Source: a virus. From it: 20,007 nucleotides of DNA. Position numbers and translations under genes: made by a program. The stretch is from the IMG/VR virus record IMGVR_UViG_3300007539_000322, positions 1-20,007 of that record. The stretch is one strand, 5' to 3'. This document shows positions 7,237 through 20,007 of this stretch, piece after piece; positions within the stretch are counted from its first letter, which is position 1; every line of letters begins with the position of its first letter. Below the pieces are notes generated by a model. It saw nothing but the letters and a program-made list of their open reading frames with translations. It ran no database searches and had not been told where the DNA came from.

Positions 7237-7911
7237 TCAACCTTTGTTCTCCTGTACATCAAAGTAACGCACGATATCTGCTAGCGCAGGCACCCCTGCC
7301 CTTCGCTCTATGGCTTGGTCACACACAGCCAGCGTGGCAGCGCGTACATCGTCAGCAGATACCTCACGCAATGCCAGTCGCCGAGCGTGTGCTATCTCAT
7401 TATCATACAGCCGCACCTGTCCTGTCGCCTGTTGGACGGCACGCAGATAGGCATGGCACAGCTCACCAGCATGCGCGTCACCGACTGATTGTGCATCCCC
7501 CAGACCCCCTATCTCTTTGCTAGTATCATCTTCTTGGTCTGCGCGTAGCTGTAGCGCTTTGGCGGTGTGTATATCTTCATAAGTTGGCAATGGCTCATCA
7601 CCCTTCCACAACACTTGATACCTGTTTGTTTTCCACCCGCTGGCTGTCTCTTGGTAGTCCTTTGGGTTTAGCTGTCGCACATAGTTGCCAGCCTTCAAAC
7701 GCTTCATCGCTTCCAGAATGCTCTTTCTTTCCGCATAGCCGCTCACTGAGCACAGGGTATCGAGCGATGGCCAGCATACCCCAGCACGATTAACAAACGC
7801 ACACAGCGCGCCCAGAACGCGAAACTCACGCTCTTTTAGTTTGCGGTCACCACACGCACGCATTGGCATGACACTGTACGGGCGCTTATTCTCAGAAAGG
7901 GATGTCGTCAT
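7237..7911 (-). CDS. Winged-helix replication protein
   Basis: The 224-aa product has an N-terminal winged-helix domain (residues ~20-103): LKEREFRVLGALCAF, then WPSLDTLCSVSGYAERKSILEAMKRL and a wing KTNRYQVLW. This is the pattern of helix-turn-helix replication-initiator proteins in phages, where a region like this recognises origin DNA and helps load the helicase. The C-terminal half is helical and ends PALADIVRYFDVQENKG. It lies last in the leftward replication operon, after the primase-helicase and the SSB-tail protein. The ATG at 7911 is 20 bases inside the upstream gene, with AAGGA 9 bases before it. A transcription-regulator role is the main alternative. Confidence 0.65.
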   Translation of the reverse strand: MTTSLSENKRPYSVMPMRACGDRKLKEREFRVLGALCAFVNRAGVCWPSLDTLCSVSGYAERKSILEAMKRLKAGNYVRQLNPKDYQETASGWKTNRYQVLWKGDEPLPTYEDIHTAKALQLRADQEDDTSKEIGGLGDAQSVGDAHAGELCHAYLRAVQQATGQVRLYDNEIAHARRLALREVSADDVRAATLAVCDQAIERRAGVPALADIVRYFDVQENKG

Positions 7912-8473
7912 CGAGCTTGTCCTTTAATGTTGGTTTAACGTCACTCACCACAGCACCGGGGAACGTGTCCTTCACCTGTACGGCTAGCGTGTTCTGCTCT
8001 GACCACTTGGCCAGTATCACCGCCGCCTCTTGCACACAATACACCAGCGCGTCAGGCATGTCGTTCTTGATGTGCGTCACGGCCTGTTCATCACGCGCTA
8101 TCGCAACCACCTTGCCATCAGCATGCGCAGTCCACACATCCATGCCTATCTCTTTACCGCCTAGCGCGGTGGCTTCCTTCTCCAACGCCGCATAAGCACG
8201 CAGTGTCACAGCCACATGATGTTCTACATCTACAGCCGCATCACGGTGGATGGCATCGTTGAGCTTGTCCATCTGCTGCCAGAACCTATCCCGCAGTTCT
8301 GGCGACACAAGGTTGGGCAATCTCTCCACACCCCATCGCCTTTCATAATCAGACACAACCCTGTCATATTCCGTGAGGTAGTTTTGTATCTTGCGATAGG
8401 TTGCCTCACTTGTCACCTTGGTTCCCATCATTCGCCTCAGTGCTGTAGCATCAGGCTTCTTTACTTTTCTCAT
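7892..8473 (-). CDS. Replication-module protein with SSB-like DDDIPF tail
   Basis: The 193-aa product is mostly helical and charged at the start (basic MRKVKKPD, then a long helix-rich region), with strands around DVWTAHADGKVVAIARDEQ. It ends in KLDDDIPF, the same acidic-hydrophobic tail that bacterial SSB uses to dock partner proteins. I do not recognise the body as an OB fold. The start is ATG 8473, with AAAGGG close upstream; an open extension to 8542 reads through a repeat-rich segment and looks spurious. It lies between the primase-helicase and the winged-helix protein. A replisome-binding or ssDNA-binding role is likely but not proven. Confidence 0.6.
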   Translation of the reverse strand: MRKVKKPDATALRRMMGTKVTSEATYRKIQNYLTEYDRVVSDYERRWGVERLPNLVSPELRDRFWQQMDKLNDAIHRDAAVDVEHHVAVTLRAYAALEKEATALGGKEIGMDVWTAHADGKVVAIARDEQAVTHIKNDMPDALVYCVQEAAVILAKWSEQNTLAVQVKDTFPGAVVSDVKPTLKDKLDDDIPF

Positions 8474-8496
8474 CCCTTTACCCTTTCTGCGTGCTG

Positions 8497-8594
8497 TGCG
8501 TGCGTGCGTGCGATAACCATAGGGATTATCGCACAACACCACGCGTGCGACTTCAGCGTGCGACCGTGCGATTTAAGGTTTTTACAGTCGCACG
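8497..8594. repeat. CGTGCGA iteron-like cluster and 9-bp palindrome
   Basis: Within the gap between two replication genes, CGTGCGA occurs at 8507-8513, 8544-8550, 8557-8563 and 8565-8571, and its inverse TCGCACG at 8588-8594. A 9-bp perfect inverted repeat, GTGCGATAA (8508-8516) with TTATCGCAC (8526-8534), has a 9-nt spacer. A (TGCG)4 tract covers 8497-8512. Two more inverse copies, at 8644-8650 and 8710-8716, lie just inside the primase-helicase gene. The clustering suggests initiator-binding iterons or an operator. On the minus strand, TGCGATAAT also resembles an extended -10 element. Confidence 0.6.
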
Positions 8595-8599
8595 TTTCC

Positions 8600-10405
8600 T
8601 TATAACTCTTTGTATTCCCACACATAGCTTCCCTCTATCACAATCGCACGCTTTGTCTGTAACGCATCCCTTGCATCTCTGCGCCTTGAACGGGTCGAAT
8701 CGGGTGTTTTCGCACGGTGTTTGTCGTGCCACGCTGTCACCGGCACGCGTTCTTGGCCTAGTTCGACAGACAGATTACGCAGTGCTTGCAGGGCTATCTT
8801 CTGCGGCTCTGTCAGCTTCGCACTACGCTGCTTCTTCTCTGGCATGTCTGCCTGTGTCATCACCACGCTAACATCATCTATCAGCGCCACCGGGGTCATC
8901 GTAAACGCTACGTCTGGCATTGGCTCTGCATCCTTCTGCTTCTCTGTCGCCAGCGTTACCGTCTCTTCCAGCTTGCTTACCTTGATGCTTGTATCCACCG
9001 CCCCCAACAGCGCCGTAGACCCACGCATGCCTCTGGCCGCGTCCTTGCCAGAATGGTGAATGGCCACCACCGCGCATTCGCAGTGGCGCTTTACTATCTC
9101 GCACGCATCCACAAACAGACCCATGTCGGTTGCGCTGTTCTCATCACCGCCGAGCAAGGCGCGCGCTACAGTATCCACAAACACCGCGCTGAACTTGGTA
9201 TCTAGGTTGTCTATCGTGCGCAGTAGGCGCTCCACATCGTCAGGTTCGCGGAACCTCACCGCTGTGGGCAGAACATAGAACGGCACATCCGCTGTTAGCT
9301 TGTGATGCGCTTGCCATGCCTTGATACGCTTACCCAGACCGCCAACACCCTCGCCAGCTATGTACAGCACTGCGCCACGTTGCACAGCGTTATCGTGCCA
9401 CGCCTTGCCATAAGCCACCGACAGCGCCATGTCTATCGCTAGGAATGATTTACCAGCCCCCGGCTCACCGTATAGCACGCTAAACCCGTGCTTAGTTAGC
9501 AACCCATCCACCAGCCACTCCACCGGCGGCATGTTGCGCAGATAGTGTACATCATACACATCAAACACATCGGGGCGCTCTTCTTGTACGTTATCCTGTA
9601 CGTCCGGGGCGTCCGACAGCACCGGGGTCGCGGCAGCTATCTCAGCCAGACGGTCACGCGTACCGCCAGCGACCATCCAATCGTAAACGTCTTGCTTATC
9701 TGTCAGGCCCGGTATCGTGACCAGCTTCACCGCCTTTGCCACAGGGTATAAATTTGATACCACCACTTCAGCGTGGCGTGTGCCAGCCGCATCGGCGTCA
9801 GGCAACACAATCACGTTACGCCCGGCAAACCATTTATTTAGATCCGCCGACCAGTTCTTTGCGCCGCCATGGTTGGTGGTCGCAACGAAGCCTTGGCTGA
9901 TTAGTAGCTGCGCACACTTCTCGCCTTCCACTACCCATATTGGCGCTTCCTTGTCTGCCATGATGCCCGGCAGATTATACGGCACCGGGGTAACGTCCTT
10001 GACGTTCCATACCCAGCCGCCCTTGCCGTCTGGTCTGCGCTGCCGGAATGTCTTTGGCTCGTATCTGACAACCTGATAGATGCACTCGCCATGCTCATCT
10101 ATATAATCGTATGCCTTTGACATGTACCGCGCCGGCTGTATCTTCTGTTGCACTTGCTTGGCTATGCCAAACTGCTTTTCCAGTATCTCCGGAAGACTGC
10201 GTAGCTGGGCGCCCTCGTTCACGCGCACCATGTCTATGACCCCGCCGCCTTCGTTAGCCTCGAAGTCGAACCATGTGCCTTTGCGCAAGTCTACACTGCG
10301 CGACCCGTGCGTACCCCAGCGCAGTTCATGGCCACGCTTTTCTTTTGGTTCGCCCCAGTAGTGCCGCGCTATCTGTTCTATATATGCTGCTATATTCTGT
10401 GTCAT
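8600..10405 (-). CDS. Primase-helicase with Toprim and RepA-type ATPase
   Basis: This 601-aa protein joins three parts. The N-terminus (residues 1-90) resembles the primase Zn-domain fold (WFDFEANEGGGVIDMV) but lacks zinc-binding cysteines. A Toprim domain follows, with the catalytic E160 (VVEGEK) and D203/D205 (LPDADAAG). The C-terminal hexameric helicase-type ATPase has Walker A GEPGAGKS (313-320), Walker B ending FVD411, and AIHHSGK (449-454), typical of RepA-like replicative helicases (AAA_25). It would prime and unwind DNA at the replication fork. The start is ATG 10405, with AGAGGG 6 bases upstream. The 3' part contains two copies of the nearby iteron-like heptamer. Function is clear; the polymerase is not in this window. 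Confidence 0.92.
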   Translation of the reverse strand: MTQNIAAYIEQIARHYWGEPKEKRGHELRWGTHGSRSVDLRKGTWFDFEANEGGGVIDMVRVNEGAQLRSLPEILEKQFGIAKQVQQKIQPARYMSKAYDYIDEHGECIYQVVRYEPKTFRQRRPDGKGGWVWNVKDVTPVPYNLPGIMADKEAPIWVVEGEKCAQLLISQGFVATTNHGGAKNWSADLNKWFAGRNVIVLPDADAAGTRHAEVVVSNLYPVAKAVKLVTIPGLTDKQDVYDWMVAGGTRDRLAEIAAATPVLSDAPDVQDNVQEERPDVFDVYDVHYLRNMPPVEWLVDGLLTKHGFSVLYGEPGAGKSFLAIDMALSVAYGKAWHDNAVQRGAVLYIAGEGVGGLGKRIKAWQAHHKLTADVPFYVLPTAVRFREPDDVERLLRTIDNLDTKFSAVFVDTVARALLGGDENSATDMGLFVDACEIVKRHCECAVVAIHHSGKDAARGMRGSTALLGAVDTSIKVSKLEETVTLATEKQKDAEPMPDVAFTMTPVALIDDVSVVMTQADMPEKKQRSAKLTEPQKIALQALRNLSVELGQERVPVTAWHDKHRAKTPDSTRSRRRDARDALQTKRAIVIEGSYVWEYKEL

Positions 10406-10431
10406 CTCATTCCCTCTTCCCCTTTGGAAAT

Positions 10432-10471
10432 GGTAGGGCGCTGGCAAAGGGAGGAAACCCAGCGCCCTACC
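10432..10471. other. Perfect 13-bp hairpin before the primase-helicase gene
   Basis: GGTAGGGCGCTGG (10432-10444) and CCAGCGCCCTACC (10459-10471) form a perfect 13-bp inverted repeat with a 14-nt loop, filling the gap between the ssDNA-binding-like gene and the primase-helicase. There is no T-run on the minus side, so it is not a standard terminator. On the transcript, loop bases CCCTTTG (10451 to 10445) can pair with CAAAGGG (10426 to 10420), next to the primase Shine-Dalgarno. RNA processing, partial termination or translational control are the candidate roles. Confidence 0.7.
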
Positions 10472-12343: not shown

Positions 12344-12967
12344 ATGAAATTCATCGTCTACTACCGCGTATCAACGCAGCGTCAAGGCCAATCCGGCCTT
12401 GGCCTTGAGGCACAGAAGCACGCTTGTGCGCATTATGATATTGTCGCAGAATACACAGAGGTGGAAAGCGGCAAGAAGTCCAACCGCCCGGAGCTATCCA
12501 AGGCACTGGCACACGCCAAAGACATTGGCGCAACCCTGCTTATCGCTAAGCTCGACCGTCTGGCGCGTAACGTGCATTTTATCACCGGCTTGCTTGAGGC
12601 TGGCGTGCCTATCACTTGCGCTGATATGCCAGAGGCAGACCGCACGTTTCTACAAATCATGGCAGTGTTTTCTGAACGCGAGGGGCGCGTCATCTCAGAA
12701 CGCACCAAAGCCGCACTAGCCGCTGCCAAGCGCCGGGGCGTAAAGCTCGGCTCACCAAACCCAGCCAAGGGCGGGTCAGTGACCGGCGCACAGCGCGCTA
12801 ACGCCACCGCACAGGTAGCGCCGCAAGCTATGCCCATCATTAACGCATTGCGCAAGGCCGGTCAGAGCCTACGCGCCATCGCATCCGCTCTCAATGAAGA
12901 GCAGATACCAACCGCAATGGGCGGTCAGTGGCACGCATCCAGCGTGCGTAATCTCATCAATGCATAA
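12344..12967 (+). CDS. Serine recombinase (resolvase/invertase type)
   Basis: This 207-aa protein is a small serine recombinase. The catalytic serine is S10 in YYRVST, with R8 nearby. The arginines of the LDRLAR motif are R72 and R75. The long E-helix ends with EREGRVISERTKAALAAAKRRG (~111-132). The C-terminus (LRKAGQSLRAIASALNEEQIPTAMGGQWHASSVRNLI) is a compact helix-turn-helix DNA-binding domain, as in resolvases and invertases, and lacks the large domain of phage serine integrases. It cuts and rejoins DNA at short paired sites. No paired recombination site was seen in this window, so its substrate is unknown. It lies in the early rightward operon with AAGGGA upstream. Confidence 0.9.
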   Translation: MKFIVYYRVSTQRQGQSGLGLEAQKHACAHYDIVAEYTEVESGKKSNRPELSKALAHAKDIGATLLIAKLDRLARNVHFITGLLEAGVPITCADMPEADRTFLQIMAVFSEREGRVISERTKAALAAAKRRGVKLGSPNPAKGGSVTGAQRANATAQVAPQAMPIINALRKAGQSLRAIASALNEEQIPTAMGGQWHASSVRNLINA

Positions 12968-12978
12968 GGGGGAATATT

Positions 12979-13248
12979 ATGCGGTTATTTAAACATCAGA
13001 CAACTTGTCCACAATGTGGCAGAAAAGCAAAAAAACACACCGAAAGCTGGTGGGAAAAACATCTTGGGGAATACAAGGGCAATCTGCAAATCATCAATCG
13101 CCGCGAAACTTGGGGTGGCGACACGTTAACCTTGTGGGATGGCGAAACATACGAGATGTATGCTGGAAACTTTTGCCGCAACAAATGCGCTATAGCATAC
13201 GCGAACCAAACCATTGACCGCGTTAGGGAACGCGTTGGGAGAAAGTGA
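12979..13248 (+). CDS. Zinc-finger protein, 89 aa
   Basis: The product has TCPQCGRKAKKH (C10, C13, with H20) near its N-terminus and NFCRNKCAIAYANQ (C66, C70) near the C-terminus, a likely four-ligand zinc site with the two halves 50 residues apart. The middle (WWEKHLGEYKGNLQIINRRETWGGDTLTLWDGETYEMY) is strand-rich. It has GGGGGA 5 bases before ATG 12979 and its TGA overlaps the next gene as TGATG. The function is unknown. Confidence 0.75.
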   Translation: MRLFKHQTTCPQCGRKAKKHTESWWEKHLGEYKGNLQIINRRETWGGDTLTLWDGETYEMYAGNFCRNKCAIAYANQTIDRVRERVGRK

Positions 13249-13373
13249 TGCAGAAAGTCGCAGGAATGTTATTTATGTATGCGCTTCTCAGCCTGTGGGT
13301 CATGGGCTGGGTGGACATCTTCGGGCCACAATATACGTGGTGGAATTTAATTTATCTTATGGGAGTAAACTAA
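13248..13373 (+). CDS. Tiny single-span membrane protein (41 aa)
   Basis: This gene encodes 41 aa: MQKVAGMLFMYALLSLWVMGW (residues 1-21), then VDIFGPQYTWWNLIYLMGVN. Residues ~4-21 form one membrane-spanning helix, and the C-terminal part is aromatic. It links its neighbours with a TGATG overlap at 13246-13250 and a TAATG overlap at 13371-13375. The two overlaps and the membrane helix argue that this short frame is coding. The alternative is the longer frame running through it in phase with the exonuclease, which has a poor start and a poor N-terminus. Confidence 0.65.
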   Translation: MQKVAGMLFMYALLSLWVMGWVDIFGPQYTWWNLIYLMGVN

Positions 13374-14341
13374 TGGTCGGAAAACTAACACCTGACAACA
13401 TGCTATCAGCCTCGCGTATCGCGCAGTTGATGGGTCAATCACCATACGCAACGCAAAACGAATTGCTTGCTGAGTTTATAGACCGTGACGCTGGCAAAGA
13501 GCCAGAGCCATGGGAAGGCAACGAACTTACACGCTGGGGCGATATCCATGAAGGCGCAGTTATTGCAGAAACGTCACGGCGCCTTGGCCTTGTCGATGTG
13601 CAAGCAGACTTTGAGCAAGCGTTCTTCCATGACAAGCTGCGCATCGCGGCATCGCTGGACGGCATGGCCACAGGCACGCGCATGGTGAAAGAGGATTACG
13701 CGCAGGGCATTATCATCCCCGGCGTTGCAAACGCATTCTCAACAGCCGACAAAAAATTGTTGCTGGAAATCAAGACAACACAGCAAGCGCCAGAGGACTT
13801 GCCACCACCACATCGCGGCGTGCTACAGCTACAGGCGCAGATGATGTGCGCTGGTGCAGACATGGGCGCGGTGTGTGTACTCTATCGCGGCTCAACCCTG
13901 CGCATCTTCCTGTACCACGCTGACGCTGGCGTACAGGCACGCATTGCACAGGCCATCGAAGAGTTCGAGCAACGCCGCCAAGACATTGACTGGTATCCGC
14001 TGATGAACCCAGCCGATGGCAACGTAGCCTACAGCCGGGTAGATGATGTGGCACAGCCTTTGGACGTATCAGGCGGCGAGGTTCAAGATGCTATCGAGGC
14101 TTTGCTTGAGGCGAAGCGCGCTAAAAAAGAATGCGATGAGGTTATCGCTGACGCAGAGACAGTGATAAAAGATTTTATGGGAAACCATGAAGAGGCAAAC
14201 ACCGTGGTAGATGGCAAGCGTGTTATCGTTAAGTGGGGCATGCGCAACATGAAAGCCACGCCTGAGAAGGTAGTGCCAGCAAAGCCAGCCATGCGGGTGC
14301 GTCAGAATGCTTTGACCGTGAAGGAGTTGGGTGATGCGTAA
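13373..14341 (+). CDS. YqaJ-like viral recombinase/exonuclease
   Basis: This 322-aa protein has the YqaJ/lambda-exonuclease-type PD-(D/E)XK core: RWGDIHEG with E60, AASLDG with D96, and LLEIKTT with E132 and K134. The N-terminus (MLSASRIAQLMGQSPYATQNELLAEFI) is the usual start motif, and the C-terminal third is helical. Such 5'-3' exonucleases make 3' overhangs for phage recombination, working with a ssDNA-annealing protein. The ATG at 13373 is preferred over an in-frame start at 13214, because GGGAG lies 7 bases upstream and the stop of the tiny gene overlaps as TAATG. It ends 8 bases into the methyltransferase gene. Confidence 0.9.
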   Translation: MVGKLTPDNMLSASRIAQLMGQSPYATQNELLAEFIDRDAGKEPEPWEGNELTRWGDIHEGAVIAETSRRLGLVDVQADFEQAFFHDKLRIAASLDGMATGTRMVKEDYAQGIIIPGVANAFSTADKKLLLEIKTTQQAPEDLPPPHRGVLQLQAQMMCAGADMGAVCVLYRGSTLRIFLYHADAGVQARIAQAIEEFEQRRQDIDWYPLMNPADGNVAYSRVDDVAQPLDVSGGEVQDAIEALLEAKRAKKECDEVIADAETVIKDFMGNHEEANTVVDGKRVIVKWGMRNMKATPEKVVPAKPAMRVRQNALTVKELGDA

Positions 14342-14981
14342 AATGGTGCATGGAGATTGCTTTGAGCAATTTAAAAACATACAGGACGATACCTTTGATG
14401 TTGTTTTAACATCGCCCCCATATAACAGAAAAAGAAACGACAAGTATGAGCATCACAAAGACGTTACAAACGACTATTTTTCTTTTCTGCAAAAATCAAT
14501 AAAGGAATGCTTGCGAGTTTGCAGTGGCAATGTTTTCTTTAACATTCAAAAAAATAGTTACAACAGAAGTGATGTTCATAAAGTTATGGGTGCGTTTGCC
14601 AGTGAAATAATAGAGGTAATTGTGTGGCATAAGAGCAACCCAATGCCAAACCCTCATGTTATAAATGCTTATGAGTATATTTTAGTTTTGTCGAAAGCCA
14701 ACAAGTCCTTGAAGGCAAATAAAACATATACACTAAACCACTTCACAACCCCGGTATATTCATCAAACCCATATAAAAAAATACACCGGGCTGTTATGCA
14801 CCCAGAGGCGTGCGCTTTTATCTTGCAAAATTTTTGCTCTGAAAACGATTATGTTTTTGACCCGTTTGCTGGCACAGGAACAACTGGCGTTGAGGCAATA
14901 AAGCTAGGTATGAATTTTTACGGCGTTGAGTTAAGCGAAGAATATTTCGATATAGCAAACAAAAGGATTAGCAATGTATAG
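14334..14981 (+). CDS. DNA methyltransferase (beta class, N6-Ade or N4-Cyt)
   Basis: The 215-aa product has TSPPY at residues 26-30 (motif IV) and DPFAGTGTTG at 176-185 (motif I, AdoMet binding). The order IV before I marks a beta-class amino-methyltransferase acting on adenine N6 or cytosine N4. The central part between them is short, so the target recognition domain is small. No restriction enzyme lies next to it, so it is probably an orphan that alters phage or host DNA. Its DNA is much richer in A+T than both neighbours (18 of 60 G+C at 14521-14580, against 32 of 60 at 13561-13620), suggesting recent transfer. The ATG at 14334 has GGAG 7 bases upstream; a GTG at 14331 is too close. Confidence 0.92.
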   Translation: MRKMVHGDCFEQFKNIQDDTFDVVLTSPPYNRKRNDKYEHHKDVTNDYFSFLQKSIKECLRVCSGNVFFNIQKNSYNRSDVHKVMGAFASEIIEVIVWHKSNPMPNPHVINAYEYILVLSKANKSLKANKTYTLNHFTTPVYSSNPYKKIHRAVMHPEACAFILQNFCSENDYVFDPFAGTGTTGVEAIKLGMNFYGVELSEEYFDIANKRISNV

Positions 14982-17792: not shown

Positions 17793-20007
17793 CTATCGGG
17801 CGTTGGCGTTCTTGAATGGGGCTTCTGCAAATGCAAGGAATATGTATGTGCCGCCTGATGCGTTGGATGCCCCAGTTAATGTTCTTAACTTAAATCCATT
17901 TGACAAGAAATCAAAATACAAAGTAGTTCCTTCTGCATCCGCTTGGCTAGCAAGAAGATACTTATCTACTGGATTATGAGGGTCGCGAATGTTATCTTGG
18001 AGTGTCCAATCATTTGCACTATCAGTACGCTTCACCATAATCCATGACGGACGAAATCCTAGGTGTACATAGACCCCATCTGTCGAGCCGTTGCCCGTGT
18101 ATGAGCCTATCTTGCTGTAGCCTTCAACCGAGTGGAACGCATAGCAGATGATGCGACCACCAGAGCCGTTTACTTCTCCCGCAGAGCCAATGTTAATTAC
18201 AGTGTTAGACGCAATACTGCCTTGCCAAATGTTGGGGTCATAAACACTTGCAGAAGTTGAGTTGAGAGCAAGGTATCTTACACCCGCACCAAGCCCGTTT
18301 ATGTTGTAATAAACACGCCATTGACCTGTTGTGTCACGATTTTTGAAGAAGGCTATCATTGGCTTTTGAGACAATCCATGCCCTACTGTAGCGGCAGAAC
18401 CTGTGCCAGTATAACCCACCACACTAAAGCCCGCATCTGTATTTGCGCTGACTGTGCTGGTGATAGACCCGTCTGTATTGCTGACCGCAGTACCGCCAGC
18501 CAGCCAGTTCCATGCGGCAAGGGTTCTGCCACTGCCATTTGCCGAACTGTCTGTACCTAACGTAAAACCATCGCTGTCAAATGTTTTTAGCAAAGTTGTT
18601 GCAGTAAATTCTTGGTCTGTGGTGTTTGAAAATAGCTGTCTGTTGCCACCTCTAACACTATCGTTGAGAACATGATTATCTGCTATGCTTCTTGTTTTAA
18701 GCCAGACCCAATCAGGCTGGAAACCAACACCAGTGATTGCACGGTCATCAACACCATCACCAGTATAAAGCACAGTATTGAAATAATCATCTGGCGCAGT
18801 GATGGTAGGCGTAGGCAGATTGCCAGTGGTCAGCGCAAGGTAGCCCGAAGGTGGCGCATAGTAGAAGTCACCCACGCCATTGTCATCAGTGTTGCCCTGC
18901 GGTGTTTCATTGCCAGCGAAGGAACTGTCCTGACCAAAGTTGGCACTTAACCCTGTAGTTGGATTGCCTCTGGTAAACAAAATTAAGAAAAATTCACCCC
19001 CACCAACAGATGTCAATGAATGATTACCAGTACCTAGCAAAGTGTTGTTCTTGTAAAAAGATACTTGGTCATTATCAATGTCCATTGCGACACCAATAAT
19101 GTCTCCAGCAGAAAATGAAAACCCACTGTTTGAGCCTGTTTGGGCAACACCATCAATAATCACACACCTAGAAGAGGAGCTTGTGTTGTCCAAATTTATC
19201 ATTGTAATGCCAGAAACATTGCCATTTTGGTTGGACGATGAAGGAGCGTACACATAAGAACCCACACCTATTTGAGTTCCATTTGTGCTTAAATCATCAA
19301 GCCTGACTTCAGCGTACCACTTACCACTTGCCACACCAAAGCTACCATAGCTTGTTTGGAAGAGTGTATTTGTTGTCTGAACTACCTTTAAGTTGCCCTC
19401 GGAAAAAACTGGAACTGTACCACCTGCCAGTGGGTTCATCACAGCAAAGTTACCGCCAGTCACAGGAGCATCTATCACGACATCCGTATTGTTCAGGGCG
19501 TTGGGTGTCCAGTTGTTGCTGTTGCCAGAGGTATCGCCGAAGAAGGTGGCATCTCTCGTATCGGCAAAGGCTAGATATATATAGCTTCCGCCAGAGGTGT
19601 TTATAGTGTTTCCAGAACCTTGAATGGTAAATCCATCGCTATCAAAATCCAAAACATTGGCGGATGGGGTTGCTTCTGCGTCAGATGTGTTTGCCGTTAA
19701 AAGTTTGTTTACAGTATTTACAGGTGAGCGAGTGTTATCATAAATCGCCCAATCTTCTGCGGCATTTGTTTTCTTAATCATAATCCAAGCTGGCTTGAAG
19801 CCCAGCCCCGTGATGCTGTTCCCAGCCGCCCCTGTGCCAGTATAGCTAGAACACTTCGAGTAGCCTGAGACCGAGTGGAAACAATAGGCTATCATTGTTG
19901 CGCTAGGAACTTGCAAAGCGGAAGATGAATAAAAAACTGTTGATGTTGGCTCACCTCCCCAAAGTCCTGAACTTGTTGTGGTGGCGTTAGTTCCATTTAA
20001 CAGCAAA
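17793..20007 (-). CDS. Tail fibre/spike protein with DUF7483-like repeats and SPRY-like domain (5' end cut off)
   Basis: The last 737 codons of a large gene that runs off the right edge are visible (the first codon here is a Leu TTG inside the gene). The YTGxGxxxxxxxxGxxxxPxW repeat (the Trp is missing in the third copy) occurs at about residues 55-75, 414-434, 532-552 and 636-656, and FHSV(S/E)GYSK precedes the first and last. Around residues 220-360 is a SPRY/concanavalin-like beta-sandwich (GKWYAEVRL, GDIIGVAMDIDNDQVSFYKNN). Such repeats, often annotated DUF7483, build receptor-binding fibres of marine phages. It probably binds the host surface. The repeats could allow domain exchange by recombination. 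Confidence 0.8.
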   Translation of the reverse strand, partial: LLLNGTNATTTSSGLWGGEPTSTVFYSSSALQVPSATMIAYCFHSVSGYSKCSSYTGTGAAGNSITGLGFKPAWIMIKKTNAAEDWAIYDNTRSPVNTVNKLLTANTSDAEATPSANVLDFDSDGFTIQGSGNTINTSGGSYIYLAFADTRDATFFGDTSGNSNNWTPNALNNTDVVIDAPVTGGNFAVMNPLAGGTVPVFSEGNLKVVQTTNTLFQTSYGSFGVASGKWYAEVRLDDLSTNGTQIGVGSYVYAPSSSNQNGNVSGITMINLDNTSSSSRCVIIDGVAQTGSNSGFSFSAGDIIGVAMDIDNDQVSFYKNNTLLGTGNHSLTSVGGGEFFLILFTRGNPTTGLSANFGQDSSFAGNETPQGNTDDNGVGDFYYAPPSGYLALTTGNLPTPTITAPDDYFNTVLYTGDGVDDRAITGVGFQPDWVWLKTRSIADNHVLNDSVRGGNRQLFSNTTDQEFTATTLLKTFDSDGFTLGTDSSANGSGRTLAAWNWLAGGTAVSNTDGSITSTVSANTDAGFSVVGYTGTGSAATVGHGLSQKPMIAFFKNRDTTGQWRVYYNINGLGAGVRYLALNSTSASVYDPNIWQGSIASNTVINIGSAGEVNGSGGRIICYAFHSVEGYSKIGSYTGNGSTDGVYVHLGFRPSWIMVKRTDSANDWTLQDNIRDPHNPVDKYLLASQADAEGTTLYFDFLSNGFKLRTLTGASNASGGTYIFLAFAEAPFKNANAR

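Follow-up and report, generated by a model that had tools for sequence, protein, structure and literature searches.

SaPI Rep and Cch2 bind iterons that lie directly downstream of their own genes via a C-terminal domain (PMC7581432), and the pri-rep-ori module of PICIs likewise contains iterons (PMC6092414). The initiator of the PLE satellites of Vibrio cholerae has one conserved domain and one modular, DNA-binding domain that is exchanged and varies in concert with the origin; the phage nuclease Odn is named as the pressure behind this swapping (PMC8263062). In the plasmid pRN1 the primase-helicase ends in a winged helix and its gene is directly followed by the origin stem-loop, the alpha protein of P4 presents a Toprim part together with iterons, and iterons plus hairpins recur in the origin of RSF1010 (PMC4234260). 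Given the precedents of SaPI Rep/Cch2, PICIs, PLE and pRN1, the overall plan of the locus analyzed here is already known. In the open-access literature we found no description of free-living phages that combine this plan with a RepA/Twinkle-type helicase and with such a range of naturally swapped specificities. P4 alpha combines primase, helicase and origin recognition in one protein, uses an SF3 helicase, and recognizes an origin located away from the DNA adjoining its gene. To our knowledge, the RepA/Twinkle class of RecA helicases is not known to read origins itself. In this study we propose, with a probability of roughly 80%, that a cluster of short repeats is the iteron origin of a tailed phage and that the adjoining primase-helicase is its own initiator, the specificity of which is modular.

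The window analyzed comprises 20,007 nucleotides (IMG/VR record IMGVR_UViG_3300007539_000322) and matches the 32,639-base IMG/VR phage record G001 from position 5 of the latter, the first 16 kb compared being nearly identical. The heptamer CGTGCGA is present ten times on both strands of the window, whereas dinucleotide shuffles average 3.28 copies and reach nine at most. It shows the strongest clustering of all 7-mers in the window, with seven of the ten copies inside 210 bp (8507-8716). The seven-copy cluster of the original prediction, four copies direct and three inverse, is thus real, with positions and strands as claimed. All genes near the cluster are on the minus strand, the primase-helicase gene being located upstream of it. 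Five copies occupy the gap between the stop codon of this gene (8600) and the ATG of the next one (8473), confirming their predicted position between two genes, and two are embedded in the 3' end of the primase-helicase gene (Table 1). The predicted 9-bp palindrome sharing the repeat core was recovered as an inverted repeat with 9-nt arms and a 9-nt spacer (GTGCGATAA/TTATCGCAC at 8508-8516/8526-8534), the right arm of which holds GTGCGA on the minus strand. The genome-wide motif count called for beforehand was made in four relatives of 32-35 kb. Each genome has 9-12 copies of CGTGCGA, of which 6-7 form one unique cluster and the remainder is scattered, while the reversed control pattern has 13-15 copies per genome. 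As is typical for an iteron origin, the short-repeat cluster exceeds chance, occupies a single site per genome and adjoins a replication gene. The A+T content of the gap is not striking (at most 64% in 50-bp windows, at 8575-8625) and its centre is formed by the palindrome instead. The gap DNA has no similarity to cultured phages. GC skew drops almost steadily along the genome and says nothing on the origin, since the genes run mostly in one direction.

Table 1. Coordinates (window numbering) of the repeat cluster and the surrounding features; roles are proposed.
Feature	Position	Strand	Basis or remark
Putative iteron CGTGCGA	8507..8513	+	exact count
Putative iteron core GTGCGA, eighth 6-base partial site, right arm of the palindrome	8529..8534	-	
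Putative iteron CGTGCGA	8544..8550	+	exact count
Putative iteron CGTGCGA	8557..8563	+	exact count
Putative iteron CGTGCGA	8565..8571	+	exact count
Putative iteron CGTGCGA	8588..8594	-	exact count
Putative iteron CGTGCGA, within the 3' end of the primase-helicase coding sequence	8644..8650	-	exact count
Putative iteron CGTGCGA, within the 3' end of the primase-helicase coding sequence	8710..8716	-	exact count
Palindrome/hairpin, iterons in its arms and CCTATGG at its centre (minus strand, 8517-8523)	8508..8534	.	
Proposed primase-helicase-initiator gene	8600..10447	-	Toprim-like part, RecA-fold helicase, C-terminal winged helix
Winged-helix domain at the C-terminus (residues 547-611), putative binder of the iterons	8615..8809	-	AlphaFold2
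Recognition helix alpha-3 (residues 586-598), candidate determinant of specificity	8654..8692	-	motif covariation
Next gene, for a 193-aa protein without known family that has an SSB-type tail (LDDDIPF)	7892..8473	-	does not track motif
HTH_36 (RepO-like) protein, candidate binder of the original prediction	7237..7911	-	Pfam, PHROG
Exchange cassette: winged-helix codons and iteron gap	8485..8900	-	edges inferred from relatives

The arrangement recurs among related viruses. A scan of viral contigs with four family members yielded 92 non-identical loci covering the gene end and the gap, and in 86 of these a repeat array is present around the primase-helicase stop codon. The motif is lineage-specific (GTGCGAT, GTGTGAT, GGTTATA, ATCGGAA, GTCGGGT, GGTCGCA, CCGGACA and others), whereas the position of the array, the spacing of its sites and the central palindrome are kept across lineages. 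Arrays comprise 5-11 sites and all repeat copies within one array share one motif. The array is missing in a distant sister group with 38-41% identity to the family of the window (L205, L207, L215, L217 and L221) and in the single locus L078, while every other lineage has one; the arrangement is therefore not universal. In the former group the next gene nearly abuts the primase-helicase gene, and the origin of these phages must either lie elsewhere or work differently. Two further loci (L140, 4417-4540, and L154) encode a primase-helicase with an unrelated-looking C-terminus and carry a GCGGACA array with a differing palindrome centre (GCTTTATATAAGC).

The primase-helicase counts 615 amino acids when read from a TTG, an ATG at 10405 being the likelier start. 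Its single Pfam match is AAA_25 (4e-41), it matches primase/helicase families of PHROG, and RSF1010 RepA (1g8y, E 5e-9) is the only sequence-profile match in the PDB. Foldseek returned Twinkle and T7 gp4 as top matches, with RepA also found, at a low overall TM. The RecA-fold hexameric core of the RSF1010 RepA family (1g8y/1nlf/1olo) is thus recovered by both profile and fold. Upstream of the RecA helicase, an invariant VEGE (173-176) and a DxD (217/219) are found as in Toprim primase-helicases, which, judging from known Toprim signatures, we take to fit a Toprim primase; Pfam gave no match to a Toprim domain. The AlphaFold2 model predicts a C-terminal winged helix (pLDDT mostly 90-95) with the order helix-strand-helix-helix followed by a two-strand wing (helices 547-563, 570-580 and 586-598; wing strands 602-605/608-611). 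No relatives of the protein were found in bacterial genomes, and the nearest relative in a cultured phage is 29.5% identical over 87%. A scan with the C-terminal domain alone gave 17 loci with 81-100% identity, mostly on contigs already known for these primase-helicases, so that an occurrence of the domain in other proteins, e.g., nuclease fusions, was rejected.

The product of the next gene ends in a conserved LDDDIPF that resembles the C-terminal tail of SSB. It has no fold match in the PDB, and AlphaFold2 models it with moderate confidence (74) as mostly helices plus a small alpha/beta part. The scanned proteins include none of a DNA polymerase family, and the phage therefore probably uses the host polymerase. 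Elsewhere in the window, an oppositely transcribed block (12344-14981) contains a serine resolvase/invertase, a YqaJ/RecE-like exonuclease and a lone N6/N4 DNA methylase, and 17793-20006 encodes the final part of a long tail-type protein that contains a SPRY domain and several DUF7483 repeats and that is complete, at 1132 amino acids, in L279.

Four other explanations of the cluster were weighed. The one that survives best, though we consider it improbable, is an operator array through which the winged helix of the primase-helicase or another regulator would control the downstream SSB-tail gene, without origin function. The end of the array is close to the start codon of that gene and the palindrome arms form head-to-head sites as in an operator, yet the gap contains neither a sigma-70-like promoter match nor a terminator match, T-tract included. 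In addition, two sites are within coding sequence, the determinant of specificity is located on a replicative primase-helicase and not on a repressor, and the 5-11 sites exceed the usual number in operators. The original prediction favored initiator iterons over an operator; its first part stands as the best-supported reading, while an operator, in a gap that has no sigma-70-like promoter match, may still be a side role. Operator and origin roles of the array may coexist.

The covariation between protein and motif was analyzed with tests that treat related sequences as units, so that all permutation values serve as guides and not as true probabilities: a 10-residue-window scan of the entire primase-helicase identified about 583-593 as the best predictor of the motif (partial r 0.42 versus a permutation maximum of 0.31, with a seed-free k-mer measure of the gap, whole-protein identity as the given and 300 permutations represented by their best window each); with pooled motifs, obtained from hand-chosen seeds, alpha-3 identity predicts motif similarity given the rest of the domain (partial 0.50, 0 of 2000 permutations), whereas the domain without alpha-3 adds nothing (partial -0.09); and for automatic 8-mer motifs the correlation with the domain is modest (partial 0.22, 1 of 500 permutations), the pooled-motif and seed-free correlations being stronger. 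This covariation strongly supports recognition, and at the level of sequence comparison it is very probable that the C-terminal winged-helix domain reads the repeats.

Two other candidates for the binder were rejected. The 193-aa protein is nearly identical between phages with different motifs, and none of its 10-residue windows predicts the motif significantly (0.18; null 95% 0.21). The HTH_36 protein had been placed beside the cluster by the original prediction, but it is not an immediate neighbor, as the 193-aa gene intervenes. It could bind the iterons and recruit the primase-helicase given its DNA-binding fold, its weak PHROG matches to replication initiators and the presence of its gene in the window's own lineage. 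However, it is absent from most array-bearing lineages: out of 15 long records of relatives, ten gave no match, and nine of these ten belong to lineages with an array, the tenth being of the array-less L205 type. Since the motif follows the C-terminus of the primase-helicase instead, its assignment as binder is probably wrong, and we give this explanation very little weight.

The same C-terminus appears to have been exchanged between relatives. In sister phages the DNA identity falls from >0.9 to 0.4-0.5 from about -300, counted from the stop codon, and returns to >0.9 near +115, at the start of the next gene. The replaced block thus covers the last ~95 codons plus the gap (~420 bp), and domain and motif change together. 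This is well-illustrated by L061/L145, with 99% identity in the core, 95% in the next gene and 41% in the C-terminal domain (GGTTATA versus ATCGGAA), and by L055/L056, where these values are 99, 94 and 29% (GGTCGCA versus ACCCGAC). Conversely, GTGTGAT is paired with (G)KRRDAR/NRRDAR helices in three core backgrounds (L095; L018/L019/L156; L177), and the TPEQRNTAR helix is paired with GTCGGKT in the L044/L053 and L056 backgrounds. Mapped onto the core tree, the motif labels require 19 changes where 14 would be the minimum, and starred branches put both GTGTGAT and GTCGGKT in three or more separate positions each. Each motif type of the L049-core clade was found again in several metagenomes, making chimeric assembly unlikely. 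Most likely, as far as these comparisons can tell, related viruses have repeatedly exchanged the C-terminal tail and the matching repeats as one short block.

As domain and array are adjacent, part of their co-inheritance could be linkage. Replacement by adjacency alone, without any recognition, would suit the contiguity of domain and gap and an exchanged block that spans both, but it leaves the single motif throughout each array unexplained. Moreover, the next gene is equally close and does not track the motif, alpha-3 alone predicts the motif inside the domain while the remainder does not, and outside the helix the domain of L095 is only 31-39% identical to those of the other GTGTGAT-sharing loci (L018, L019, L156 and L177), the range across the three core backgrounds being 31-42%. 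Linkage as the entire explanation is therefore highly unlikely.

A palindrome with a CCTA(T/A)GG-like (CCTA(N)GG-like) centre is kept in 24 of the 26 motif classes compared to 1.5 expected from shuffles, by a pattern that was written after the sequences had been seen, and is positioned about +52 to +81 after the primase-helicase stop codon. As single-stranded DNA, the hairpins of the window (z -4.5) and of three other loci fold better than shuffles (z -3.7 to -6.2). The minus-strand hairpin could in principle also make palindrome and repeats an attenuator, terminator or processing signal in the RNA of the replication operon, but this is hardly credible: the repeats face both ways and vary in step with a DNA-binding helix, and neither an Rfam match above the gathering score nor a T-tract terminator was found.

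Based on the observed array, its recurrence, the predicted fold, the covariation and the exchange, we infer how binding, loading, melting and priming would proceed at a proposed origin that the primase-helicase itself would read. The C-terminal winged helix would insert alpha-3 into iterons of 6-7 bp and several primase-helicase molecules would assemble over the array. This would load the RecA-fold hexamer beside the palindrome with its conserved CCTA(T/A)GG centre, and there the strands would separate, perhaps into a hairpin. Primers may be made by the Toprim part, a host polymerase would take over extension, and the SSB-tailed 193-aa neighbor may cover single strands. Specificity would be modular: the domain moves with its iterons as a cassette of ~420 bp.

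Compared to the described systems, this locus resembles SaPI Rep-ori and SCCmec Cch2 of staphylococcal islands in having an initiator helicase and a C-terminal DNA-binding domain (both predicted here) and putative iterons directly downstream. The position directly downstream agrees with SaPI-type C-terminal recognition and the specificity is correlated with the motif, binding itself being a prediction. The helicases of SaPI Rep and Cch2 are of the DUF927 or D5/Primase_Cterm type, combined with AEP-type primases in SaPIs, whereas the protein of the window has AAA_25 as only Pfam match, RecA-fold matches and a Toprim-like primase. Since the helicase family differs, it is not a member of the SaPI Rep family, though it would work like SaPI Rep-ori; unlike a SaPI, the phage also has its own portal and terminase. 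P4 alpha is similar by description, one protein bringing together a Toprim primase, a helicase and iteron recognition, but the helicase of the window is RecA-fold and not SF3. In the case of RSF1010, RepA is matched by the helicase part in profile and fold, yet recognition, unwinding and priming are divided over three separate proteins (RepA/RepB'/RepC), which in the window phage would be domains of one protein. PLE share the swapping of the initiator DNA-binding domain together with the origin, but PLE RepA (RepA_N, iterons) is not a primase-helicase. ORF904 of the archaeal plasmid pRN1 likewise joins primase and helicase, carries its winged helix at the C-terminus and has the origin stem-loop downstream of its gene; it differs by its AEP primase, its SF3 helicase and the lack of iterons.

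In summary, we lean towards the view that this uncultivated phage lineage has a self-contained primase-helicase-initiator of the RepA/Twinkle type, the origin specificity of which has been diversified by swaps of a ~420-bp cassette into about 15 specificities, probably as an escape from interference or incompatibility with co-infecting phages or satellites. Origin recognition, unwinding and probably priming would then be joined in one polypeptide with a RecA-fold helicase. About 25 recognition-helix sequences paired with DNA motifs form a natural set from which a winged-helix code may be read and tested. That near-identical phages have repeatedly and recently exchanged their origin specificity suggests that the identity of the origin is under selection, for which PLE satellites under origin-directed nuclease attack are a precedent (PMC8263062) and which would be testable here in free-living phages.
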